64,000 nucleotides of DNA from contig JAJEKB010000591.1 in the NCBI GenBank assembly GCA_022393335.1, positions 79,135 through 143,134 on the forward strand, read 5' to 3'. The DNA is from Macrotrachela quadricornifera (Eukaryota > Rotifera > Eurotatoria > Philodinida > Philodinidae). Under the pieces are notes generated by a model, which did not search any database, was not told where the DNA came from, and saw only the letters and a program-made list of their open reading frames with translations. Every line of letters begins with the position of its first letter. Position 1 is the first letter of the stretch. Of this stretch, positions 31,501-53,211 are shown one piece after another. Both the position numbers and the translations under genes were made by a program.

Positions 31501-32395
31501 ATAAATTTTTCATTTTTTCCATAAAAATTAATTATACATAAGCATTCCGATTAATTGCTTGTATAGATTTAATATAATAAAAAGTGTATGGAACGATTTC
31601 TTCAAACAATATTTTTACAAATCATATAACTTTCAAAAAGGTATTATGTCTAATATTATCTAATTACGTATATACTTTTGTAAGAAAAAGACTATATTTT
31701 CTAAGATCAATTATTTATTAATCTATGAAAAATTAAATTTCTCGTTTTTTTTTTGCTTTTATTCTCATTTGATATTAGTAAGAATAAATAATTCTTTATT
31801 TCTTTCAACATTATAATAAAATTTTATCCTTCATTACATTATATTCTTTTACAAAAAAATAAAATACTTTTCTATTTCAATTATGTCATATTCATTATTC
31901 TTTAACATACCCATATTTGAAGATTATCATGCATAAATATAAAGAAAAATATTATTTAAGAGAATTTTCTTCTTCAGGTGTTAATATTATTATAGTTTGT
32001 TTCACTAAAAATGTAAGTAATTTCTACAACAAAATAAGATTTTTCATATTAAGACATTTATATATTGAATACGAACTATAAACATTGAGAAGTGTTATCT
32101 TTTTCAATAAGCAGAAACTTACAGAAAATTTTGTGTATTCTTCTACATCATTAAAACTTCAGTTATAAATAAGTTATCTATCATAGAAATGTGAATATCA
32201 AACTTTTATTAAAGATTATATCATTAATCTTATTTATAAATATTTTCTTTTTTTTAAGTTCGATAATATTGTAAAATCTCAACATATGTACATTACTATC
32301 ATCTGAAAATATACAATTTGTTTTATTTTAATCTTCATAAAAACAAAATTGCTATAACGAATTACTTTATCAACATTCAATTGTATTTGATAAAA
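28540..32395. other. Long intergenic region upstream of MNX
   Basis: About 3.9 kb between the divergent MNX and receptor 3. The first 450 bp hold two GA-dinucleotide tracts (about 28590-28615 and 28962-28978) and could be MNX control DNA. The rest is AT-rich with no exon I can support. Confidence 0.4.
28588..28617. repeat. GA-dinucleotide tract upstream of MNX
   Basis: A (GA)n run about 50-80 bp upstream of the MNX start, with a second one near 28962. Such tracts can bind GAGA-type factors; here this is only a possibility. Confidence 0.6.
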
Positions 32396-33462
32396 ATGTC
32401 ATTATTATTAGCAACTCAAATTTATCAAATAGTATATCAGTATACATTTTATTCTAATATATTTCTTTTTACCTCTGGATTAATTAGCAATCTTTTTCTT
32501 ATTTTAATATTTGTTACAATACAAGCCTTCCGAAATAATCAATGCGCTTTTCTTTTTATCGTAGAATCTATTGTAAATATTGGCTTGTTTCTTTCGATTT
32601 TTCCAGAATATTTTGTCAGCTATATAATTGGACAGAATACAACATCCATTTCACTTATTTGGTGTAAATTACAGAGTTCAATATCACAAATATTTGGTCT
32701 TAGTTCACTTTTTACAATATGTTTTCTTACTTTTGATCAATTTATGTCAACAAATCCACGACACAATTGGCAACAAATTAGTTCATTAAAATTAGCTCAT
32801 CGTCTTGCTTTTTTCAATATTTGCTTTGTTACTTTGCATAGTATTTCTTTTCTCATTGTGACTGATATTCATCCATTGACTGGATGTACTATATATAATA
32901 CAGCTCTTGATGCTTACTTTATGTTTTTCTATTATCCAATCTTAAGTTTTGCACTTCCTCTAGTTCTCACTATTACATTTAGTTTATTGGCTTATCGTAA
33001 TGTTCGGCGAATTGTACGACTACGATTACCTGTAGTTCGTCGTCGATTGGATCGACAACTTACAGCTATGGTTCTTGCACGCGTATGCTGTATTGTTTTA
33101 CTTGGTTTACCATACATTATTTATTCTATATATCGAATGAATCTTTCTGAAACAGAAAACAATAAATTGGAAATAGCAATTGCTAGTTTAGCAAGTGCAA
33201 TCGTATACTCGTTGTTATATATGAACTTTGCAGTAAGATAAAACATTCTTTCTATTTATACTGTTTTTTTTTTACATAGATCAATTTTTATCTATTTTTA
33301 ATCATATCACCACGTTTTCGTCGACAAGTAAAACATTTTTTGGTAAAGAAATGTTGGAATCTATTAAGTGGCTTGTGTCGTAGAGAATCCAGCAATACAA
33401 GTAGAAATCAAGTTGCTCCAGAAATAAATCATGCAGTTACTTCTTGTGTTGAATCTGTATAG
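32396..33462 (+). CDS. Rhodopsin-like GPCR (bdelloid expanded family)
   Basis: Exons 32396-33232 (837 nt) and 33280-33462 give 339 aa. The start at 32396 (MSLLLATQ) is preferred over the upstream in-frame ATG at 32318, because the paralogues begin at the same distance from TM1. Seven hydrophobic segments are seen. TM3 starts with the Cys of IWCKLQSS. The TM3 end is DQFMSTNPR instead of DRY. The outer-loop Cys is in LTGCTIYN. The third inner loop is Arg-rich (RLPVVRRRLDRQ). A 47-nt intron splits TM7 after MNFA, and exon 2 begins INFYLFLIISPRFRRQVK. The cytosolic tail is about 40 residues, Ser/Asn-rich. First of three tandem copies with identical exon 1 length. Confidence 0.9.
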
Positions 33463-34672
33463 TCTGCGTGTATCGTACAATAATGATGCAAAACTCTTCG
33501 TTTTAATATTCATACTATATCTATATATTATATTAAACATTGTACAAGTTTCATTGAAATTTAATTAAATCTGTAAAATATTCATCAATAAATCCTATAT
33601 CTATATATTATAAATATGGAAGAAGTTAAGAATAGCGAAAAGAATTCAAAATATTTAGTATGTGTAGTAAAAAATATATTCGAAATGATACACTGTTATT
33701 TGAAAATGCCATATGAACTAATTAGACAAGATTCAATTGTTTTTTTCTCAGATATTTTATAGTTCATAGTAATTAGTCATGTGGAGACGAGATGCTTGAA
33801 AAAACTTCAAATTAGAGTGTAAAAGCTATGTGTATAAAGAAATATGTCAAACATGTATCTGACGATTCCAAATCATGCTTTTCATAAAATTGTGCATTCA
33901 AGCAATATTTTAGATGGATGTACCCATACAGAGTCATAGTGATAGATGCGAATCTTGATCTATTGTATGAATATTGAATAAAATGAATGATGAAAATCTA
34001 TAACTACTTGACAAAATAGTTAATTGCAAATTCGATTATTATTATTTATAATAAGAACTAAACTGAATGTGATCATAGTAATTATATAATGATATTAGCT
34101 ACAATAATTATTTCAAAATTGAAGATGACTGGATGAGTGAATTTCATCGTTGATAGAAGATGTTTTAGTGTACTTAAGACACTTCCTAAAAATGATGTTG
34201 ATTTATTGTATCATCAAGTGGAAAAAAAGATTCAGATTTATTCGAACTAATTCTCTGAATTTTTAAGTGACATCGACAAAATATTCATTATTAATAAAGA
34301 ATTATACTTGATAAATTTTTAAAAGTTTTGCTTTTTGAAAAAAGAAAAGAGAGCCTTTATTTAATAAAAAATACACGTTTTTTTTTATTTTTCTAAAATG
34401 TAATGTCACATAATAGCAAAAGTACGCTTCGTTAAATATGTAAATTGATGTTTTAAAATTTCCAGACATTATAATAATATAAAACTACAACAGTTGGTTG
34501 ATCGAATCAATTCATTTTATGCAACTACTACAATTATTCTAATTGAGGTTGATCGTGCATAAAGACTGATCCTTGGATTCGTCACAAGTTGATATTTATC
34601 ATTAGAGAAAAGCGTTGAATTATCGTTGTTTGTATTTTGAAAGATAGATCCTTGTTCTTTCTAGGATCAAGC
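33463..34672. other. Intergenic, receptor 3 to receptor 4
   Basis: No gene is seen. The last ~200 bp (34470-34560) resembles the DNA at 37300-37380 upstream of the next receptor, a trace of tandem duplication. A CTTTCTAG acceptor-like site ends at 34664, 8 nt before the ATG. Confidence 0.4.
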
Positions 34673-35749
34673 ATGCCATCATTAGAAATAGCTGAACTGA
34701 TTAATGATAAAGCCAATAGCTATATATTTTATTCCAGTATTTTTCTTTTATTTATTGGACTTATTAGTAATATTTTAATTATTCTTATTTTTAACACTCT
34801 TCGAATATTTCGAAGTAATCAATGTGCTTATTATTTAAAAGTTGAGTCTATAGCCGATATTGGTCTACTTCTTGCAATATTGCCATCCAATATTGTTGGT
34901 CATGGTGTGGGTCAGAATCCAGCACAACTCTCTACGATTTGGTGTAAAATAGAACTCATGTGTTCTTATGGTTGTGGTTTATATTCTCTTTCTACAATAT
35001 GTTTTCTTGCATTTGATCAATATTTATCAACAAATCATCGACGAAATTGGCGACAAATAAGTACACTTAAATTAGCTCGTCGTCTTACATATTTCGATGT
35101 AAGCCTTGTATTATTTCATGCAATAATCTTTCTTATCTTTGCCGAGATTGGAGCAGCAGGATGTAGCATTTATCATCCTATACCAAAGATATATTTTACA
35201 TACTTCTATTTTCCATTTTTAAGTGGAACTCTTCCAATTTTGATTAGCATGTTATTCAGTTTATTAGCTTATCAAAATGTTCGTCGAATTATTAGACGGC
35301 AAATACCATTAGAACGCCGACAGTTGGATCATGAAATGACAGCATTAGCTCTGGCAAGAGTGCTTTGTATGCTTATTTTGGGTGTACCATTCATAATTTT
35401 TAGCTTATGTCAAATCAATTTGAGATATAAATATGATGATCATCTTGGAACTGCCATTTTTGGACTTTTGTCAGCAATCATATATTCATTATTATACTGT
35501 AACTATTCTGTAAGTGTATTCATTTAATCGATTATTAAAGTTGTTGATATGGTTTCAACTTTCTAGATAAATTTTTATGTATTTTTAATAATATCACCAC
35601 GTTTTCGTCATCAAGTAAAACGTTTCTTTATAAAAAGAATTTGGCGTTCTTTAACAAGATTACGTAATTCAAGATCAACAATTCCAAGTAGCAATCGAAT
35701 TGTTCCAGAGATCTGTCAAGGTACTACATCTGTCGTAGAATCAATATAG
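34673..35749 (+). CDS. Rhodopsin-like GPCR (bdelloid expanded family)
   Basis: Exons 34673-35509 (837 nt) and 35567-35749 (183 nt) give 339 aa, the same lengths as the receptor at 32396. TM1 has GLISNILIILIF. The segment FRSNQCAYYLKVESI links TM1 and TM2. TM3 starts IWCKIELM and ends DQYLSTNHRR in place of DRY. The outer-loop Cys is in AAGCSIYHP. The third inner loop is RRQIPLERRQLDHE. The intron (57 nt) is in TM7 after CNYS. Exon 2 starts INFYVFLIISPRFRHQVK. The start at 34673 follows a CTTTCTAG site by 8 nt; an upstream in-frame ATG at 34637 would lie on the other side of that site and is less likely. Confidence 0.9.
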
Positions 35750-37483
35750 GGATTTTTATTGAACAAATCATCATATTATTTCATGTGAATAACCTATTTT
35801 GTATCTCTATCTGTGGCTTATTTTTATCGTATTCAAGAACATTTAATCAAGCTAATGTATTTCATATATACCTCTAAATCTGGAAAACGACCGAAACATC
35901 GTCATAATCAAAAGAATGGATACTGAACGAAGATGAAACTCAATTGTATGGGCTAATCGTTTTATTTAATGATGTTGAACATTTCAATAATCTCTGTCAT
36001 CATTTCAATATTCAACTAAATATAATCATTTGACATTATAAGGCATTCTAAGATTAACAATGAGAATAATAGATAGGAAATTTTGATCACATCAGAGATA
36101 CTGTAGATACACGATCGAATGAAAAATTACTTCGAATCGATGACGATTTATGTGTCAATTAATTAATGATTATGATGCCAAAAATTTATCAGAACCAAAT
36201 CAAATATCTTGCGTCAAAAAGTATCAAGGAATAATTGAGTGCATCGAATAACATACGTTAGTTTTGCAATAATCAAACATCCATACGTTTGATTGATAAA
36301 AATCGTTAACATTAATTTCTTTAATTGAAATTTCTCGAATATCATTTCTATATTTGTGTACACAATAAATAATAATCTCTATATATGATAATTATCTCAT
36401 TTCTAGACGCAATATTCTTCAAGTAGTAACTATATAATATTTGATACATGAAATAGTCATCAAAATTAGTTGTATAGTTCACCATCACGTCTTGAACAGA
36501 ATAAGATAATGAGTAAAAAGGAAAGAAAAATTTATAAATTGTAATGTAATATTTCATCACTGACGATATTATCATTTTCAGCAGAGTAATTAATCACTGA
36601 GTCCATTTTATAATATACTCAAGAAATCTTGGAAAATTATTACAAATAGACTCATATGTATTAAGTAAATAAATACTTCGGAAAAAAATGAAATGTAATA
36701 TTATAATGAAATAGCTATACTCATGTCTGAAAAAATCTTTTGTGGTAGAAAATTATCAGAGTGTATTATTTTATTAAAATTTAATTTTTTGTATTTTTGT
36801 AACAATATTTTATGTGTTAGTGTTTTTCCTAACAATAATTTCTAATTGAGTCTGATTGAAAATAAAGACATATTCGATTTTTAGATGAAAATTTATGATC
36901 AATTTTTGACTAGATTTCATTTAATATATATCAAAACTGTATTTATTTTTAGTTAAGATTTAATAAATAAATTATTTTTGTTGTTAAAATATATTGTAAA
37001 ACAATCTATAAAATACATGATTGTAGTAGATTTATCATATTCTATACAGTTATTCTTATTTTTCTAAATATCATTGTTTAAAGATAAATTGATTTGAACA
37101 ATTTAAGTTTAAATATATAGATTTCTTCTTTGACAACTAATGATGATCACTTGTATTCTCTGATGATTTGTCGAAACATGTATTTAATTATTTTTCGAAT
37201 GTCAAACAAAACTTTCTTCATTCATCTTAGAAATTCAATCGCATATGACAAAACAAACCTTTGATAAATAGACATTTTAAAGTCTGAAAATATTCATATG
37301 ATATAAAATTATAATGGTTGATTTATCGAATTAAGCCATTAAGTGCAATTACTTTAATTATTTCGCTTGACAACAACAAAATACAAAGAATAAACTCTAA
37401 TATATCTCTTATTCTTTCCTACTATCAAACAAATACAGAAGAATCATTTTAGCAAAAATTTTATTTCTACTAACGATAGAGTC
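35750..37483. other. Intergenic, receptor 4 to receptor 5
   Basis: AT-rich, no gene seen. The block at 37300-37380 resembles the region before receptor 4. The minus frame at 36348-36575 is unsupported. Confidence 0.35.
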
Positions 37484-38558
37484 ATGTTTTTGTCACCAGT
37501 AGCCCAACAAATTCAATATATAACTAAAAGATATGTATTTTATAGCAGTTTTGTCAATTTGGTCCTCGGAATTATTAGTAATATTTTAATCATTCTGGTT
37601 TTTACGACATTACGAACATTTCGAGGCAATCAATGTGCTTTTTATTTGGTTGTAGAATCAGTTGCTAATATTGGTTTACTTATTTCTACTCTTCCATTTA
37701 ATATTGCTGGTTATATATTGGATCAAAATTTTGCGCAATTGTCTGTTATTTGGTGTAAAATACAACTAATGTGTTCCTACAATTTTGGCTTATTCACACT
37801 TTTTACAATAGGCTTTCTTGCTTTTGATCAGTATCTATCAACAAATCATCGACCCTATTGGCGACAAATAAGTACACTTAAACTGGCTCATCGTTTGACA
37901 TATTTCAATATTTGTTTTGCAAGTTTACATAATCTTCTTTTCTTCATCTTTGCCACAATTGGCACATTAGGATGTACAATTTATCATCCTCTAGTAAAGT
38001 TTTACCTTAGATTTTTCTATTATCCAGTGTTAAGTGCTGCTCTTCCATTGATTGCCACTATTACACTTAGTTTGTTGGCTTATCGTAATGTTCGACGGCT
38101 TGTTCGACGACAAATTGCATTGGTACGTCGCCGTTTAGATCATCAAATGACAGCTATTGCTCTAACGAGAGTAATCAGTCTGATTATTTTGGGTTTACCA
38201 TTTATTTGTACTTCTTTGTATGAACTCAATCTGAACAATAGCGAAGATAATTATATGGAAGTTACAATTTATAACTTATTATCATATATAGCATTCTCAT
38301 TATTATATGCTAATTTTGCTGTAAGTTACATAACTCAATCGACTATTGACATAGTTAATGTATCTTTATTTGTTGTAGTTCAATTTTTACATATTTTTGA
38401 TTATCTCATCGCGTTTTCGTCATCAAGTTAAGCATTTCTTCATAAAAAAATGCGGACGTCCTTTCATAAAACTATGTAATGCCAGACTATCAATAGTTTC
38501 AAGAAACAATCAAATTGTTCCAGACGCTGTTGAAAGAGCTATGCCCATTGTGGAATGA
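37484..38558 (+). CDS. Rhodopsin-like GPCR (bdelloid expanded family)
   Basis: Exons 37484-38320 (837 nt) and 38379-38558 give 338 aa. It is closest by eye to the receptor at 34673: FRGNQCAFYLVVESV, IWCKIQLMCSY, DQYLSTNHRPYWRQISTLKL and GCTIYHPL are shared with small changes. DRY is again DQY. The third inner loop reads RRQIALVRRRLDHQ. The TM7 intron (58 nt) falls after ANFA, and exon 2 begins FNFYIFLIISSRFRHQVK, with Phe replacing the usual Ile. If the intron were read through, the frame would stay open to 38431 and give a wrong tail; the spliced form restores the family tail. Confidence 0.9.
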
Positions 38559-40691: not shown

Positions 40692-43600
40692 CTAGGTTAG
40701 CATGACATATGCCAAATGAGGTCCTCCACCACCCATATTCATGAAATAAAACGAGATTAAATAGTAACCTCCAGTCACAGTGGAAAAAGATTGTGTCAGA
40801 TAATCAAAATTATTGCTTTGAGAACATTTATCCACATAGCAGTATGTTCCAGAATAACAGGAACTTGTCGTTAATTGGCCATAACGATCTCCACTTCCAC
40901 CACAATTAGTATTCGTAGCACAATATTGTGTCCAACCTGTAAAGTCTCCTGTGTCAAATCCACCATTGGTAAGAACATTGATGCTTCCATTTGTATAGTT
41001 AACAGATACACTGTCTAGTAACCAATAATTGTGTGCACCCCCACTGTCTCCTGTCAAGGCAAATGTTAGAGTAGCTGAAGAATCATTTGCAGTGAAACCA
41101 TAGGTATAATGTGTATAACTGGTTGGTGCAGAACTTGAGGCAAAACTAAAAATTCTTCCTACAGAACTTACACTATTACCACATGTCGGTGCTATTGAAA
41201 GTAAAAATATATTAGACAATCAGAGTCATATCAGTGCTAGTCCAATTGAAAGCTTACTTGTTGTTGCTGTTGTTGTAGCTAAAAGAATACAAAACATAAG
41301 TTATAATCAAAGAATATATATTTAACGACAAGATTTTTCGGACTCAAGTGATATTGAATGAGAACAAAACGGTTTCGAGTCATACAGTCGGGGACTCAAT
41401 AAAGCATGTACATTTTGATGCATATGAGTAACATAAATGTACCAATATGCCAATCAGATAGATACAAAAGTATCGTAAAAAATTATATTGTTGAATATGC
41501 AAAATGATTGTAAACAATAATTGACAATAATGATGATATAATTACTACATATAACTTTTTTTGTTTATCGCTTGTATACATGTAAAAAATAAAGATCTAT
41601 ATGCTTTTTGAAGCATCAAGATTGTTTAAGTCAGAAAATTATAAAAAGAACACATGCCATACTTCTAAATGATACTAGAGCTGTACCAATTCCAATTCTA
41701 GAATTGAAATTAATCTGAAATAGATCTGAGATAGGCTCGAACTGGTCGGTATTGATACGTCCAATTACGAACTTAGCGTTCCGAAAAATCTGAATCTATT
41801 TTTTTATTTTCAAAACCAGCATCCATTTCTGATTTGTTTTCACATATTTATTGTATGCTTTATCACGACTCATTATTTTATATCTGAGATCGCTTTCAAG
41901 GATCGAAAAATATTGTTGAAGATTACGCAACGAGGACACAAGTTGAGTCTCAAGGATAACTGTAAAGCAAAAATATTTTACTAAGCCTCGAATTTCATAG
42001 TTGAAAACAATGTCATCAAAAAGAGCATGCTGAATTACATACTCTGTAAAACAAAACTCTCGCCAGTGCACTCTCATTAGCAATAACTTCGTAAGAGGAG
42101 ACAAATCACCGTTTCTAACAGTATGATCCAATCCGAATGGTATTTAGCATTTGTTGATAGAAAAAGATTTGAGTATTTCAGAAATTCTTATCGATTCTAA
42201 TACAAAAAACTCTGCATTGAATGAATCTACTTTTATCCAACATAAAACTCCAATTTTCATGAACTGGAAGATCAAAAGTTTTTTTTTAATGGCTTCGAAA
42301 AAGTGTTTTGAATACTAATTATTCTTCAAATAATTTCGCAGAAAATAATGATATCTCTAATCACTCTCAAGAATTCTATCGAACTATAAGGAGTTCTAAT
42401 AGAACAACGACAGAAATTATCTTTGATCCTTAAGGGTCATTTCATGTCAAAAAAATTGAACTTAGATTTTTTGGGGTTGTTAGATTTATAATTTGACACA
42501 TCATTCCCGACTAGTTGCATGAAACGAAATTAGTGCATCCCTAAATCATATTGGTAGTTCTCAATAAACCTCCACTATTTATCGATATCCGATAAATATT
42601 TATTAGAAAGTAGATCAGCACAATCTTATAAGGAATAATTTGCCCGGTAAGCAATTGGTTTTCTAATAGTGGATTTTTCGCACAGTTTCAAAACCATTTT
42701 TTACTTCGATCTCCAATTCACTTCATCAATTCCTAAAATGAAAGGTTATATTTCTATAACTATTTGGTACTTTTCGTAGGGCTGAGCAGTGTACTTTGAT
42801 CCATATTTGGAGTGTTGTAGTCTTAAGATATAACTATTACTTCTATGCAACGAATGTCAGAATAAAATATAGTGTTCAATAGAACTACCAAGTAATGTTT
42901 CCCTAATCTTCTTTGAATTAATTAATATTCCTTTATAAATATTATCAGTTATCGAGTAATTTGTTTATTATTCTAACGACTATTTTAATAATTCGTATCT
43001 CCAATTAAAATTCACTAGTAAACTTCAACTATAATGTGATCTAAAATTAGTTTGCTACACACTGTGCTGTCCGGCGGAAAACTGCTTCATTCCGATTAAC
43101 ATTATAAAATGTACTAATAATTCATTGAAGTTAGATTATTTTATATGAAGCGTAATGAGATGAATTTCGGTCTGGACTAGATTTCCAGAGATATTTCGAT
43201 CTGAATTAAAACACTGGAATTTTCAACTGAGCTGAAGGCTGAGAAGAAATTCTGGCCGCCCCTATTTTGAGTCGTCATCATTTCAATTTACTAATTCTTT
43301 GTACTTTTAATTTCTTTCGAAGTATAAATGGAAATTTTTATCTCGTGCGCAACTTTCCAATTTCCGCTTCAACGAATAATAGTAGTACTAGTAGCACTGC
43401 TAATTAGTTTTTCTAAAAATGTACAGACAGAGCCTAGTTTAGCATCAAATTATGACTACACTGCTATTTAACAATAAAAGTATTTTCTTCTAATGCTCGT
43501 TTCAATCAGATATTCTTTTAATTGAAGACTTCATACTTGTGGTGCTCGTCGTTGATGTTGTCTTCGATGTCGAACTTGTGCTTGTTGTAGTGCCTATTAG

Positions 43601-46600
43601 AAAGCATATATACTTATCAAGTATTTACTATAAGAGAATTGAAGTGACGTGATTTCAGTCCAAGGTTTAAAATTCATGCTTTGGTGATGTTACTTAAATC
43701 TTTTCCTTCGACCAATAAAGACAATCTTTGACGAAATTGATTGTTATAATTCTTTTAATATAAGTAGTGGCAAATTGCAATAGAAAATTTTTCAAAAGTC
43801 TATCATATAATTTTGACAAAAGGATAAGTGAGGAAATAAATTATAATAAAATTATCAAATTATGAAAAACATCGATTTTGACGAATAGGTAATCTCTTAT
43901 GCATATCCTTGAAATATGTTTCTACTCACTTGATGTCGAAGTTGAACTGGTGCTACTCGTGCTGCTTGTACTAGTTGTTGACGAGCTAGTAGCTAAATTA
44001 GTACATATTTCAGTTTTAGACATATGTTTTATAATTTTCTCTCTCACTTGTCGAAGTTGTGCTCGTGCTAGTTGAAGTACCTAACAGATAAGGTGTACAT
44101 GTATTTAATAAGAATCTACTAAAAATGAATTTAACATGACAGATTCCAGTTTGAAACTTTAAACTTATTTTTGAATGATTTTCTTTCATGAGCTAAACTA
44201 TATATTTGTTGGTAAAAATAAGAGAATCATAATTTTTCCATGCTCAAATGTAATAAAAAGTTTTCGAGAATCTTTCATATAGTTTTGGCAAAAGAATTTA
44301 CTAGAAAACAATTTAGAATAAAAACATTGAATCACATGAGGTACAAGCTTGATACACGACTAAATTTTTTATGCATATTCTCAAAATATCTTTTCACTTA
44401 CTTGATGTCGAAGTCGAACTGGTGCTGCTTGTACTGCTTGTTGATGAACTTGTAGCTAGATCGATACATATTTCAATTCTAAATATACATTTTACAATTT
44501 TCTATCTTACATGTCGAAGTTGTGCTCGTGGTTGTTGTCGAACTTGTAGCTAGATTAGTACACATTTCAATTTTAAACACACGCTTTACAATATTCTATC
44601 TCACTCGATGAAGTTGAGCTTGTGCTCGTTGTTTGTGTTGTGCTCGTGGTTGTCGTCTGTGTTGTTGTGGTTGCAGCTGTAATAATCAATCTTTAGAAAC
44701 TCATATCAATATTTTTAGGGCTAAAATGCGTCTGAAACGGTTTTTTGCTTCTAGACGAATTTCAAACAAAAAATCGCAACTCATCACTAATAGAGATAAT
44801 TCACTAAAAAGTTGTTAGCTCGGTCAAATCTCAAAAGAATAGAAATCCTTTGGAAGTTACATCAGTGTAGTGGTTCTCTAGATATGAGCAAAATATGCAA
44901 AAAATGGAGCGGATCACTTGCGAGTGTTCCCTTGTAAGAAGACAGTTTATACTGTGCTACTCGTTATTTCAATTTTAACTTCATCACTTCAGTTTATCGA
45001 TGCAGCAGCATTTAGTTTAATCTATTTACAATATCCAGGACTTCGTATTACTTTTTAAAACAAATTTACCACTCATCCACATCCTCATCCTCAAGATTGC
45101 AGATGACTTTATCTAAAATTTTAATAGATGCAAAATAAATTATGCTATCTATATGATATATGACGAACAGCTATTAATAATATAGTATAAAGTATATATA
45201 TTATTCTAAAATTTTTTTATAAGCCATTGATAAGATAAAAACAAACTTATCAACATAGTTCCTTGGATGCTAAAATACGGAAAATCCACATCTCGTATAA
45301 ACAGAGAGATATTCTGAAAGAAACGTGTATTTTATATACTAGAAAATATTTCAAACACTATATAGTACAATACATCTCATTCTATTCACATTTTAGGATA
45401 AATATCATGACTAAATCTGTAATATATGAATTTTATCATACATTGTTTAATCTTTGTCTTTAATTGAATAGATGGAGAAGGTGAGGGAGGAAGCCACAAA
45501 ATCTCATGAATTTCATAAAATATTCGTGTAGATAAATCCATCAATCTTTTAGACAAATGCCATAGAAGTCTACATACTATGTCTCTTATTTTTAGCTTAC
45601 CTATAAATAAATTATTCAGCACATTTAGACATATTGTAAAAATTTTCAATCAAGATTATTTGTCAAAAAATTTACAGAGAGAGGCACAACTAAACTATGC
45701 TTCAAATCATGTCTATTTTGTGTTTAGCGTTTATATGAACAGTATTAAGAGAGAGATCAATTTCAGATATCATAATGTAAGATTTCTGGTCTGTAATTGA
45801 GTGAGTGAGTAATGTACTAATCCGAGATGACTATGGTGACTAAAAATCTTTTGTTGTCGCAATAATTTTTAAGACATTTTTCGAAAAGTCCTATCATCAA
45901 CGTGTTAAATTAGCATTGCTAGTTCGAATTCATTAGATTCATCGAGCTTCTACGTATTGTATTTGTTGACAATCAGATTCTACGTAAATCTATACACTTT
46001 TACATTATGTTCGAAAGAAAAATGTCCGATATCGTATGGCCACTGCGATGGCCTGTTTTAAAAATATCACTGCCATCATCATCACCATAGATACCTTCGA
46101 TATAGATGATTGAAAAAAAATGGGATTTTACTGAAATTATAAAAATACACCTTAAAGTAAATACGCACATATTTATTCAATTCTGTTATTTGAGTCGAAT
46201 CAATGCTTTCACATAGTTTTTTTAATATTAAAATAATTCCACTTACTTGTTTCTGTAGTTGATGTACTAGTCGTAGTCGATGTTGTGGTGTGTGCTATTA
46301 ATCATAGTTTTATAGAATAAAGATATACAATTATAAGAGAGATTAGACAGAGGACTTACGCAATTCCAAGGCAAGCAAAAGACCAACGACTAAACCTATT
46401 AAAAGTGCACCAATAGTAGCCACACAAAAGAAACACCAGACTCGGCCGCATGAAATTTTCCTAAATTAAACGATTATGACATATGCTAAGAAAGCATATT
46501 GAATCAGATGATGAAATAATAGATTGAAAAAGTAGAATCAATCTCAACAAGCTCTATATTGACAAGATCATACTAAGTTGTGTCATAGTATGATATTTCA

Positions 46601-47091
46601 CTGACTACCAAATAGTACACATAGAATAGATATGTAAATACAAGTAAATTCTGCTTTCTATAATACATCTCACTATATATACTCAGTTAGAAAAGCACTT
46701 ATTGCTGCATTTTATATATTTTCATTTTGAGATGTCATTCAAAGCCATGATTCAATATATTAAAACGTACCTTTTAGATTTTGTCCTTGTGTTTCGTCGT
46801 TTAGCAACATTCATTAATGCCTCTTCGAATCCTCCTATTGATACGTTTCTCTGTTCATGGTTTATGAAATTATCTGTTGACTAGAGGATGTAATATAAAA
46901 ATTTAAAAAGTGATCTTCTGTTAGTAGACAAATGAACTAACCGGTTTGAATAGAACATTAATATTACTGACGCTGTTCTTATAAATTGATGGAATTTGGC
47001 TTGAATGTGTGTGCGCCATACTAGGTCTATAGGGACGTACATGCGTAACACTAGTTCTATAAGGTCCTAGAGAGATGCGCGATAGTTCCAT
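40692..47091 (-). CDS. Type II membrane protein: mucin-like stalk and C-terminal beta-sandwich domain
   Basis: Twelve exons close in frame to 415 aa: 46942-47091, 46771-46880, 46360-46460, 46247-46294, 44605-44676, 44511-44549, 44402-44455, 44048-44080, 43930-43992, 43537-43593, 41258-41278 and 40692-41191. Residues 1-~95 are a basic cytosolic part with no signal peptide. A single membrane helix (VATIGALLIGLVVGLLLALEL) follows CGRVWCFFC. Then comes ~125 residues of almost only Thr and Ser, spread over seven small exons. The last exon (~166 aa) has paired cysteines (PTCGN, QYCATNTNCG, SCYSGTYCYVDKC) and LTNGGFDTGDFTGWTQY, recalling NGxFE-type galactose-binding-like domains. This fits an outward-facing, O-glycosylated, carbohydrate-binding receptor. 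Function is inferred only. The stalk exons all have phase 1 at both ends. Two introns are long (1.6 and 2.3 kb). Confidence 0.75.
41279..43536 (-). other. Long intron of the type II membrane protein
   Basis: 2.26 kb, far above the local norm. The open frame 41796-42131 (-) has no splice signals that would keep phase. A possible decayed stalk exon lies near 43375-43405, where the minus strand has an AG followed by ACT/AGT triplets, but it lacks a good donor. The rest is unassigned, perhaps transposon-derived. Confidence 0.3.
43930..44676 (-). repeat. Tandem-duplicated Ser/Thr stalk exons
   Basis: Five exons (44605-44676, 44511-44549, 44402-44455, 44048-44080, 43930-43992) encode Thr/Ser repeats and begin and end in phase 1. 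Exons 44402-44455 and 43930-43992 are near-copies, the second with one extra 9-nt repeat. Exons 44511-44549 and 44048-44080 share the ACGAGCACAACTTCGACA end. The introns 44550-44604, 44456-44510 and 43993-44047 are each exactly 55 nt and align along their length. The pair 44511-44549/44402-44455 lies ~465 bp from its copy 44048-44080/43930-43992, and the intron DNA between is also similar. This shows nested tandem duplication of exon-intron units. Confidence 0.8.
44677..46246 (-). other. Second long intron of the type II membrane protein
   Basis: 1.57 kb between the juxtamembrane exon and the stalk array. I found no further phase-1 Thr/Ser exon in it. Small frames at 45263-45463 and 45386-45800 are unsupported. 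Confidence 0.3.
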
Positions 47092-48575
47092 CCCTGTTCT
47101 TTCTCGACTTATTTAAATAGTTAAGTCAAATAAATTTAATTATATTTTGGTTAACGCAAGCACACTCGTCGATGACTAAATAAGCGAAGTAACATTCAAT
47201 TGAAAGAATTCATTTCTTCTATTTATTTGATTAGAAAGAAAAACTGAAGAGAAATAAATAAAATCAGCATATACATTTGGTTGGATTCACTACTCGATAT
47301 GTCATATTCAGTTAAAGTACAAACAAATAAAACTCAGCATAGAGTTCGTTAAATTCAATACTCTATTTATTACATTGGTTTCCTCAAAAAGATTGTACTT
47401 TTTTATATGTAATTATTATACTAAAGATAGAAAATATTTGAGTTTTGCATTATTTATATTATTGTCATCAATCGTAAACAAGAGACTCTCACATCTATCC
47501 ATATGCATTGGATAGTAAAATCATTTATGAAAACTTTATTGTTTTTAGTGAAAAGAAATTTGTTCAAAGATTTTTTTTCAAAGAATTACAAATGAAACGG
47601 AATCATTACATTAATCTTGATTGATTGTCAACTGTGATATGCAAAATTAATAATATATGAGATATACATGTCTTTGTTATTCCGAATTTTATTTAGCTTG
47701 TCTCTATTTATTCAGAAAAAGATCTAGTTTCTTCGTGTATTCATAAAGCCAATCCTATGCCTACGTCTAAGCTCTTCTTCGCTAATGTTATAGCAATATT
47801 CAGCACGTAGTTCATTATCTCTTTACTTTTACACTTGTATTTAAATAGAAGAAGGAAATAGAAAATTAATATTTGAACTAATATTATATCATCGACTTAA
47901 AAATACCATCCTATCTCGACATAAACACAGTATGTAAAACTAACATTTTGAAAACTTATGATAGTGAAATACAGTATCTTATTGCTAATATTTTTTAATT
48001 TTCAAACATTCAAATATAAAGACATAATAGCATCTCTCCGTTCTTTAAGGTCATCTTATGAATATAGATAGGATAAGTTATTACTTTGTTTTTTCTTTCA
48101 AATATACATGAATAGTAACAAAATACTTTTTAAAAATTTATTCAAGATATAAATTATGAACGTAAACATAGATTGATTGAAATATCCCTGGAAAGTATAA
48201 ATGTTTACAATCGGCTATAAAATCTGATATTTTTTTTTGTATTGCATATACCTATTCAATTTCATATTTTCTTCATAATCTGAGATTATGGATAAATCCC
48301 TTATTTTTACACAGTCAGTATGAGTAGATATATAAATATATTAATCTTCTTTTTATAAGTATGCGTATCGAATAGATTAGTACTTTTTTTAATGATAATA
48401 CGATTTAGTTAATTTTAGTAATTGATGAATTGAAATATTCTTTTATTTGTACTCTTTTTCAGAACATCTTATAGTTCAAATATAAATAAAAATTTTATTA
48501 TATTCTGCTAACACATTAATCGTTGTTTATTATTGAAGGAATATATTTATTTATTGGGTAACAAAAAACGAAGAG
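47092..48575. other. Divergent intergenic, type II protein / receptor 6
   Basis: About 1.5 kb of AT-rich DNA upstream of both flanking genes. It should contain both promoters. No other gene is seen. Confidence 0.35.
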
Positions 48576-49668
48576 ATGTATTTTACAAAAAATATGTCAT
48601 CATCAATAATAGCCCAAAAAGTTTATACTATAGGTGAAATGTTTATGTTATATGCTGGTATTTTTAATGTAGTTATTGGAATTATTGGTAATATTTTAAT
48701 GATTTTGGTTTTTACTACTTTAAGAATTTTTAAAAAAAATCAATCTGCTTTTTATTTAACTATAGAATCTATCTCTAATATTGGTTTACTTTTAGCAGTA
48801 TATATATCAAGAATTCTTACTTATTTTCTCGGTTATGATCCTGTTCTAGTTTCACTTAGTTGGTGCAAAATACGAACAATGATTTCGCAAGCATTTGGTC
48901 TATGTTCTTTACTTAGTGTATGTTTTCTTTCTTTTGATCAGTATTTATCAACAAATCTTCAATCTAATTGCCGACAAATGAGTACACTTAAATTAGCTCA
49001 TCGTCTCACATTGTTCAATATTTGTTTTTCTATTTTACATAGTACTACATTTTTCATTTTTACAGAGAATCATACGTCAAAAGGATGTACAATATATAAT
49101 GAAATAGCTAAACGTTACTATTCATTTTTCTATTATTTATTTATCAGTAGTATTCTTCCAATAATTATTACTGTTACATCAAGTTTATTAGCTTATTATA
49201 ATGTTCGGAGAATTATTCGACGACAAGTACCAGTAATTCGTCGACGTCTTGATCATCAAATGACAGCAATAACTTTGGCACGTGTTATGGTTTTTATTAT
49301 ATGTGGTGTACCATTTATTTGTATTTCATTATATGAACTTAATTTAAATAATAATGCAGATAATAATTTAGAATTAGCAATTATTAATTTGGTATCATCA
49401 ATACTTTATTCATTATTATATATGAATTTTGTGGTAAATTGAAAAAAGTTTTATATCGTTATTGAGTTAATGAATTTTATTTTAGATCAATTTTTATGTT
49501 TTTTTGATGATATCATCACGTTTTCGTCGTCAAGCAAAAATTGTTTTAATAAAAAGATCTTGGCGTTTAATCAAATATCAACGTGATAGAAAATCAATTA
49601 ATATGCATAGAAATCAAATTTTTCCTGAAGTAGAACTACAAAGTGTTTCTCTTAATGAACTAGCATAA
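48576..49668 (+). CDS. Rhodopsin-like GPCR (bdelloid expanded family)
   Basis: Exons 48576-49433 and 49486-49668 give 346 aa, or 340 from the second ATG at 48594, which matches the paralogues better. TM1 has GIIGNILMILVF. The TM1-TM2 link is FKKNQSAFYLTIESI, where Ser replaces the usual Cys. TM3 starts SWCKIRTM and ends DQYLSTNLQSN in place of DRY. The outer-loop Cys is in SKGCTIYNE. The inner loop 3 is RRQVPVIRRRLDHQ. The TM7 intron (52 nt, phase 0) follows MNFV, and exon 2 begins INFYVFLMISSRFRRQ. Separated from the other + strand receptors by the unrelated type II gene. Confidence 0.9.
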
Positions 49669-51882: not shown

Positions 51883-53211
51883 ATGCATGCTCTTGGTATA
51901 GATATTGGTACAACATCCTGTAAAATTTGTGTTGTTTCATCATCTTCAAATGAAAAAAATCGTATAATTTTTACTGAACAATTTGCTCATAATGCTCATA
52001 TTATTCAAAAAGAATATTCTTCATATGATGAACAATCACCAGAAAAAATTCTTGAAACAGTTGAAATACTTTTAGAAAAATCTGGTAGTCTTAAAAATGA
52101 TTCATTAATAAAATCTATTCAAATATCTGGTCAAATGCATGGTTTTATTCTTTGGTCATCAAAATCACCACGTACAATTGTTTCATCACTTATTACATGG
52201 CAAGATCAACGATGTTCAACAGAATTTCTTTCATCACTTGGATTATCTTTAACACATTTACGAACTGGTTATGGTTTAGCTACTTTATTATGGTTAATTA
52301 ATCAAGAAAAAGAAAATAAAGAAGATGAATTATTAAAATATGATCGAGCTGGTACAATTGCTGATTATATTGTTACAATTTTATGTGAAGATTCAATAAA
52401 TAATTTTCAAATATCAACTCAAATGGCAACAAGTTGGGGAGCTTTAGATAATAAATGGCCTATTGAACATCGTTTATTACCAAAAATTGTTCAACCTGGT
52501 ACTATTATTGGTTATTGGAAAAAAAATATTCCTGTTTATGTTGCTCTTGGTGATTTACAATGTTCTGTATTTAGTTGTCAACCAGAAAAAAATCATGCTG
52601 TTATAAATATTTCAACATCAGCACAACTTGCTTTAGTTATAGATAAACAATCATCAATAAATCAAGATGATCGAGGTGATAAAATTTTATCATCAATGTA
52701 TGTCCCATATTTTGAATCAAAAGATTTATTAGTTGCTGCTTCACTTAATGGTGGAAATATTCTATCAGCATTTGTTCATTTAATTCATTCATGGGAATTA
52801 TCTTTAAATAATAATTCTTCATCATTATCTATTGATACACTTTGGTCTCGTTTAATTGAACTTGGTCTTCAATCAACAACAATTATTGAAAATTTTTCTC
52901 CTGCGCTATTTGGTGAACGACATGATCCATCTATGTCAGCATCAATAACAAATATTCGTTCAATAAATATATCACAATTGAATGATATTGGGTCAATATT
53001 TCGTACAATATGTCAATGGATAATTAAAAATTTATTTGAAATGTTAGGAGAATATTCATTAACAATTAAAGGTATTATTGGTACAGGTAGTGCGTTAATG
53101 AGAAATTCTATATTACAACAAGAACTTAAAGAAAAAGTAAAAAGTCAAGTTATTTTTAATGAACATTCCGATGCTGCTTATGGTGCTGCTTTATTTGCTT
53201 TGACGCAATAG
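51883..53211 (+). CDS. SHPK: Sedoheptulokinase (FGGY family)
   Basis: SHPK phosphorylates sedoheptulose to sedoheptulose-7-phosphate, feeding the pentose phosphate pathway in the cytosol. 442 aa in one exon (human 478). The N-terminal ATPase fold has GIDIGTTSCK (5-14). The substrate region has SGQMHGF and ITWQDQRC, typical of SHPK rather than xylulose or glycerol kinases. Further SHPK matches are AGTIADYIV, VALGDLQCSV, NISTSAQLAL, AASLNGGN, FGERHDP and GTGSALMRNSIL. The ending HSDAAYGAALFAL is the family's C-terminal signature. It lies 64 bp before MAO on the same strand. Lack of introns is unusual among the genes here, but the sequence looks animal-like and codon use matches neighbours. Confidence 0.93.
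   Translation: MHALGIDIGTTSCKICVVSSSSNEKNRIIFTEQFAHNAHIIQKEYSSYDEQSPEKILETVEILLEKSGSLKNDSLIKSIQISGQMHGFILWSSKSPRTIVSSLITWQDQRCSTEFLSSLGLSLTHLRTGYGLATLLWLINQEKENKEDELLKYDRAGTIADYIVTILCEDSINNFQISTQMATSWGALDNKWPIEHRLLPKIVQPGTIIGYWKKNIPVYVALGDLQCSVFSCQPEKNHAVINISTSAQLALVIDKQSSINQDDRGDKILSSMYVPYFESKDLLVAASLNGGNILSAFVHLIHSWELSLNNNSSSLSIDTLWSRLIELGLQSTTIIENFSPALFGERHDPSMSASITNIRSINISQLNDIGSIFRTICQWIIKNLFEMLGEYSLTIKGIIGTGSALMRNSILQQELKEKVKSQVIFNEHSDAAYGAALFALTQ

Follow-up and report, generated by a model that had tools for sequence, protein, structure and literature searches.

A candidate bdelloid surface-protein gene whose symmetric Thr/Ser stalk exons were probably multiplied by unit duplication

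We analysed a 64,000-nucleotide stretch of DNA from Macrotrachela quadricornifera, hereafter the window, in which a gene on the minus strand (47091-40692) holds an array of small exons coding for threonine and serine. As modelled from sequence alone, the gene has 12 exons in one frame and encodes 415 amino acids, with a membrane helix followed by a Thr/Ser stalk and then a head. Its parts are as follows.

46942..47091, minus strand: exon E1 of the gene model, start of the predicted cytoplasmic base, MELSRISLGPYR...
46771..46880, minus strand: exon E2 of the gene model, predicted cytoplasmic base
46360..46460, minus strand: membrane-helix exon, ending in phase 1, hydropathy 2.71
46247..46294, minus strand: stalk exon S1, 48 nt, phase 1-1
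44605..44676, minus strand: stalk exon S2, 72 nt, phase 1-1
44550..44604, minus strand: intron S2-S3, 55 nt (59 nt in the second haplotype)
44511..44549, minus strand: stalk exon S3, 39 nt, phase 1-1
44456..44510, minus strand: intron S3-S4, 55 nt
44402..44455, minus strand: stalk exon S4, 54 nt, phase 1-1
44081..44549, minus strand: first copy of the copied unit (S3, 55-nt intron, S4, 321-nt intron)
44048..44080, minus strand: stalk exon S5, 33 nt, phase 1-1
43993..44047, minus strand: intron S5-S6, 55 nt
43930..43992, minus strand: stalk exon S6, 63 nt, phase 1-1
43594..44080, minus strand: second copy of the copied unit (S5, 55-nt intron, S6, 336-nt intron)
43537..43593, minus strand: stalk exon S7, 57 nt, phase 1-1
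41279..43536, minus strand: intron S7-S8, where the putative base/head exchange point is placed
41258..41278, minus strand: stalk exon S8, 21 nt, phase 1-1, shorter than the 30-nt limit of the exon scan
40692..41191, minus strand: head exon including the stop codon; beta-sandwich model for its 165-aa domain

In every stalk exon both borders fall after the first base of a codon, which makes the exon symmetric. The eight range from 21 to 72 nt, only S5 and S8 being 36 nt or shorter, and together make up 387 of the 1248 coding bases (31%). The predicted stalk of 128 residues, 95% of them Thr or Ser, directly follows the membrane helix and would lie on the outer side of the membrane. The N-terminus encoded by E1 is similar to those of two retrieved proteins (P0019 and P0024) and of a second gene on contig C4716, and the C4716, C4223 and C4472 genes each have an exon that equals S7 in length and resembles it in protein sequence. 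Four long, mutually similar hydrophobic ORFs on the plus strand (32267-33241, 34619-35527, 37394-38431 and 48537-49442) flank the stalk gene on both sides, on the strand opposite to it, and read to us like seven-helix receptors. An intronless ORF of 442 aa at 51883-53211 (plus strand) presumably encodes a protein resembling a sugar kinase.

An initial annotation of this DNA had described five Thr/Ser exons at 43930-44676. These correspond to S2-S6 and are indeed present on the minus strand, bounded by AG/GT, with lengths of 72, 39, 54, 33 and 63 nt and phase 1-1 throughout, but the array is not limited to them, as the model also contains S1, S7 and S8. A window-wide scan of both strands, in all three phases, sought exons of 30-240 nt that have AG/GT borders, splice-site scores of moderate strength and a Thr/Ser content of 85% or more. 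It returned seven candidates, namely S1-S7, all in phase 1 and all in the stalk gene, while 100 dinucleotide shuffles of the minus strand at 41200-46400 returned none in any phase. Across ten regions containing family genes, three of which gave no candidate, 32 of the 33 candidates obtained (nested ones counted) are in phase 1, one is in phase 2 and none is in phase 0, and the antisense strand gave no candidates. Low-complexity ACN/TCN sequence, in a gene modelled from sequence alone, might be a non-coding or decayed repeat merely resembling exons. This reading is hardly credible given the splice borders and single frame across 12 exons, the lack of shuffle matches, the unchanged stalk protein in the second haplotype (below) and the presence in Rotaria, Adineta and Didymodactylos of predicted Thr/Ser-stalk proteins with the same type of head. 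Avoidance of the serine codon AGT, a possible cryptic splice donor, was rejected as a general feature: AGC:AGT is 15:9 in the window gene versus 8:27 in four window ORFs (p 0.003), whereas the stalk exons of four paralog genes show no shift (6:23, p 1.0).

All eight stalk exons are present in the second haplotype (contig C425), with the same lengths and intact borders. The stalk exons differ at 4 of 387 bases, with no amino-acid change among the complete codons compared, whereas the introns from S1 to the head differ at 223 of 4714 bases (Fisher 1.6e-4 versus the stalk). The S1-S2 intron alignment contains 64 inserted bases; omitting this intron leaves 123 of 3144 intron differences (p 0.002), and restricting the comparison to the immediately neighbouring introns leaves 28 of 822 (p 0.02). 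Low haplotype divergence marks the stalk exons only; the remaining coding exons have diverged to about the intron level (E1, 5/150; E2, 2/110; helix exon, 4/101; head, 10/438 covered bases).

The array was proposed to have arisen by nested tandem duplication, with mutually similar introns and a copied two-exon unit of about 465 bp. The three 55-nt introns align without gaps at 76-82% identity, compared with 54-71% identity to the three other short introns of the gene. The two-exon unit is likewise borne out by spacings of 463 and 472 bp and by its long introns (321 and 336 nt), which match at 69% over 162 columns, and a smaller unit, consisting of one exon plus a 55-nt intron with a period of 94 bp, has also been copied. 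These observations support nested tandem duplication of exon-intron units within the Thr/Ser stalk adjoining the membrane helix, and the predicted frame safety of each unit holds for all eight exons. Their equal phase would follow if the copies descend from one symmetric exon. The intron length of 55 nt, on the other hand, is neither special nor fixed: the matching introns measure 59 nt in the other haplotype (the first) and 54 and 53 nt in the C4716 gene, and median intron lengths in four bdelloid assemblies are given as 55, 58, 67 and 61 bp, with most introns at 30-100 bp (PMC5916493), so that the short introns of the array would be of normal bdelloid size. On whether the 465-bp copying came before or after the split from the C4716 gene, informative sites are divided 6:4:2 over 115 columns.

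BLASTP with the head (E<=0.01) matched 40 of 44 retrieved proteins, the exceptions being P0036, P0039, P0040 and P0041, and at least 74 matches were found in the M. quadricornifera genome itself. For two of these own-genome matches, an apparent open frame of 18,487 aa was rejected as an artefact of bases read as N. All named relatives are bdelloid (41 named among 42). Many of the 44 relatives, though not all, display helix, stalk and head together; several are fragments or faulty models, and P0004, P0012, P0025, P0033, P0035 and P0043 have no helix before the stalk. Pfam searches with the head, the base and eight relatives gave only matches below cut-off, the head scoring 14.1 bits against DUF642 (cut-off 27) and 15.8 against VAS1_LD (cut-off 26.9), both under the gathering score. 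Foldseek found nothing at E<=0.001 for the modelled head, and VIA-align, a re-ranking confined to Foldseek hits, listed legume lectins for all of its best 50 matches. On this structural model the head may be a lectin-like beta sandwich, possibly with the ConA-like lectin fold, and a putative sugar binder, and the stalk is predicted to be mucin-like, with putative O-glycans. No description of the family appears in the titles and opening parts of abstracts of the open-licence papers listed on bdelloids, lectins and threonine-rich membrane proteins. A survey of rotifer lectins sought secreted lectins, leaving out candidates with membrane regions, and mentions threonine-rich stretches in rotifer FReD proteins (PMC8878817).

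Beginning with E1 and continuing slightly beyond S7, the DNA of the window gene can be aligned in pieces, intron parts included, with C4716:1794443-1798105 (69-84% identity; best piece E 3e-45). This similarity breaks off after 49 bases of the S7-S8 intron, at position 43488, and beyond that point nothing matches C4716 at E 0.1 except a 25-base stretch at S8 (E 0.017). The two heads are 36-37% identical, and in a search with the C4716 head the window head comes only 25th among 36 own-genome rows, one of which is the C4716 head itself. The mismatch between base and head is reciprocal: the window base scores 241 with C4716 versus 98 with P0003 of R. socialis, while the window head scores 193 with C4716 versus 574 with P0003. 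In the head tree, C4716 falls within a clade of eight (100/99) together with Adineta and Rotaria heads, and the window head groups with P0001, P0003, P0009, P0010 and P0011 (84/97, not starred); forcing the window and C4716 heads together is rejected (log-likelihood 61 lower, AU p 2.1e-5). The base tree (141 columns) joins the window gene and C4716 at 89/87, not starred, and keeps a grouping of the window base with P0001 and P0003 acceptable (p 0.246, or 0.374 in a tree of seven rows); by itself it does not prove head exchange. The reciprocal scores, the head tree and the intron-level DNA similarity to C4716 lead us to regard an exchange of heads within the S7-S8 intron as the likely history of this pair, one that would have been harmless because of the shared phase. 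As the four ORFs neighbouring the window gene have no tblastn match (E<=0.001) in the 15 kb compared for the C4716 gene, we refer to the latter as a paralog rather than an ohnolog.

Plain tandem duplication within a single gene could also account for the array if base and head were inherited together and the divergent C4716 head had simply evolved fast. The end branch of that head is long (0.79), as fast evolution would predict, and the base tree tolerates the required grouping; however, fast evolution would not readily place the C4716 head inside a well-supported clade of eight with Adineta and Rotaria heads, nor make the window base closer to C4716 and the window head closer to Rotaria. We consider joint inheritance unlikely compared with head exchange.

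Several further observations concern the paralogs. A second, weaker mismatch is seen on C4475, whose base is nearest P0009 (51% over 37 aa) and whose head is nearest P0014 and P0024. Two copies of a head gene, L011 (C2126) and L046+L012 (C4314), agree at 96% from a point 151 bases before the head, and farther upstream they no longer resemble each other, perhaps owing to an insertion or to a different upstream part; C2126 is an 11.3-kb contig. The S4-S5 intron of the C4716 gene (L007, C4716:1796156-1797727) is 1572 nt long versus 321 in the window gene, and some of the added length codes for a Cys-rich segment that resembles the end of a piggyBac-type transposase.

The C4716 gene model contains seven stalk exons (48, 48, 30, 42, 54, 57 and 45 nt), one fewer than the window gene. 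The expectation that stalk length changes through exon number is therefore borne out between paralogs (8 versus 7) but not between alleles, where five haplotype pairs revealed no difference. These pairs were drawn from 30 head loci, comprising 14 haplotype pairs and 2 singles. Within up to about 1.5 kb of upstream sequence, stalk-exon candidates occur at 16 of the 30 loci and are lacking at 14; nine regions read further upstream contain one to five stalk exons. C424/C425 and C4475/C4341 were compared from membrane helix to head, C873/C874 and C41/C40 near the head only, and C4223/C4472 over four exons near the head; a fifth exon, 45 nt long and next to the helix, was seen in C4223 alone, as the C4472 pieces yielded no helix. 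Two of the five pairs differ in length within an exon through internal repeats: a stalk exon of 129 versus 114 nt in C4475/C4341, and a Thr/Ala-rich stalk exon of 468 versus 339 nt in C873/C874, a difference of 43 codons inside one exon. The C873 and C874 loci with this long exon are L041+L013 and L042+L029. Of the nine remaining pairs, one has a lone 15-nt candidate common to both members, four lack any candidate within 1450 bases, and the last four fall outside the comparison because of an insertion, unlike upstream DNA, a contig end or bases read as N. C1175 and C1538 seemed to differ in exon number (three candidates versus none), but this was rejected, as about 880 extra upstream bases in C1538 displace the region.

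Since two of the five pairs differ within exons and none in exon number, while paralogs do differ in number, in-exon repeats seem to move first between haplotypes, with changes of entire exons apparently taking place on a longer time scale. One might go further and propose that the stalk changes mainly by slippage of in-exon repeats, exon duplication being incidental history. The two in-exon differences and the constant exon number among haplotypes fit this proposal, which we hold to be possible though somewhat doubtful, as the eight exon lengths of the window gene are identical between haplotypes and its paralog differs in exon number. Two predicted proteins of Adineta ricciae, P0015 and P0018, agree at both ends of the stalk, but one of them is 17 residues (51 nt) shorter; the gap looks as if one symmetric exon were missing.

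The symmetry of all eight exons would also suit a splicing device, in which exons are skipped according to cell or stage to give many stalk lengths from one gene. The R. socialis models P0001, P0002 and P0005 look like products of one gene, as they share stretches of base and head, but on a simple score their stalks measure 4, 40 and 47 residues, as such skipping would produce. These variants, however, are predictions, made with BRAKER and RNA-seq separately for the assemblies of five individuals (PMC7943196), and some of the models are faulty, P0005 being without 20 head residues and P0006 stopping early. Symmetric exons also follow from duplicating one symmetric exon, with no need for a splicing function. 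We therefore treat the differing R. socialis stalks as a lead for alternative splicing rather than as evidence, and consider a splicing device improbable as the explanation of the array.

The explanation that we favour, and hold to be quite probable, is that this gene belongs to a surface-protein family so far seen only in bdelloids, in which a phase 1-1 stalk array has grown by unit duplication and allows bases and heads to be exchanged. The protein, presumably of type II orientation, would be anchored by a single membrane helix, with a base in the cytoplasm and, on the other side, a mucin-like Thr/Ser stalk carrying a lectin-like head. Copying of exon-plus-intron units of about 94 bp and about 465 bp, perhaps by unequal exchange or slippage, would lengthen the stalk, since copying a symmetric exon to any position preserves the reading frame, and DNA exchange within an intron of the array could join the base and stalk of one gene to the head of another. 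A broader and more tentative suggestion, which we put at somewhat less than even, is that the array acts as the recombination joint of a large bdelloid surface repertoire, with bases, stalks and heads being swapped between genes through its introns and length tuned by exon copying and in-exon repeats. If true, this would give a combinatorial surface to animals thought to lack ordinary sex. The window gene provides, outside parasites, an example of a family with exons laid out for frame-safe change. Trees of bases set against trees of heads would directly test whether bdelloid surface proteins diversify by exchange between genes.

In the phase 1-1 shuffling of extracellular modules, symmetric phase-1 exons are copied and exchanged in frame. 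The window gene would share this frame-safe copying and exchange, but its repeat is a Thr/Ser linker instead of a folded module, and heads may be exchanged with this linker as the joint. Membrane mucins and the neck of DC-SIGN also hold a binding domain off the membrane on an extended segment whose length is set by repeats, mostly within one exon. The predicted stalk resembles them as an extended segment below a putative binding head, variable in length by repeats; its repeat blocks, in contrast, are separate exons, although other family members have long single repeat exons. The nearest parallel appears to be the schistosome micro-exon genes (MEGs), which encode secreted or membrane-exposed proteins from arrays of tiny symmetric exons; in MEG-26 exon-length patterns are repeated by internal duplication, an exchange of terminal exons has been proposed for MEG-8/MEG-9, and protein variants are reported (PMC5825161). 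The window gene is like them in its tiny symmetric exons, predicted exposure, internal duplication and putative exchange of an end, and would thus work partly alike. It is not a member, because most of its coding sequence is not in micro-exons: about 80% of a MEG coding region lies in short symmetric exons of 6-36 bp (PMC5825161), with introns of 0.1 to 5 kb (PMC10526429), whereas stalk exons of 21-72 nt make up 31% of the window gene, three of its introns are 55 nt long, and its array is flanked by a membrane helix and a folded head.
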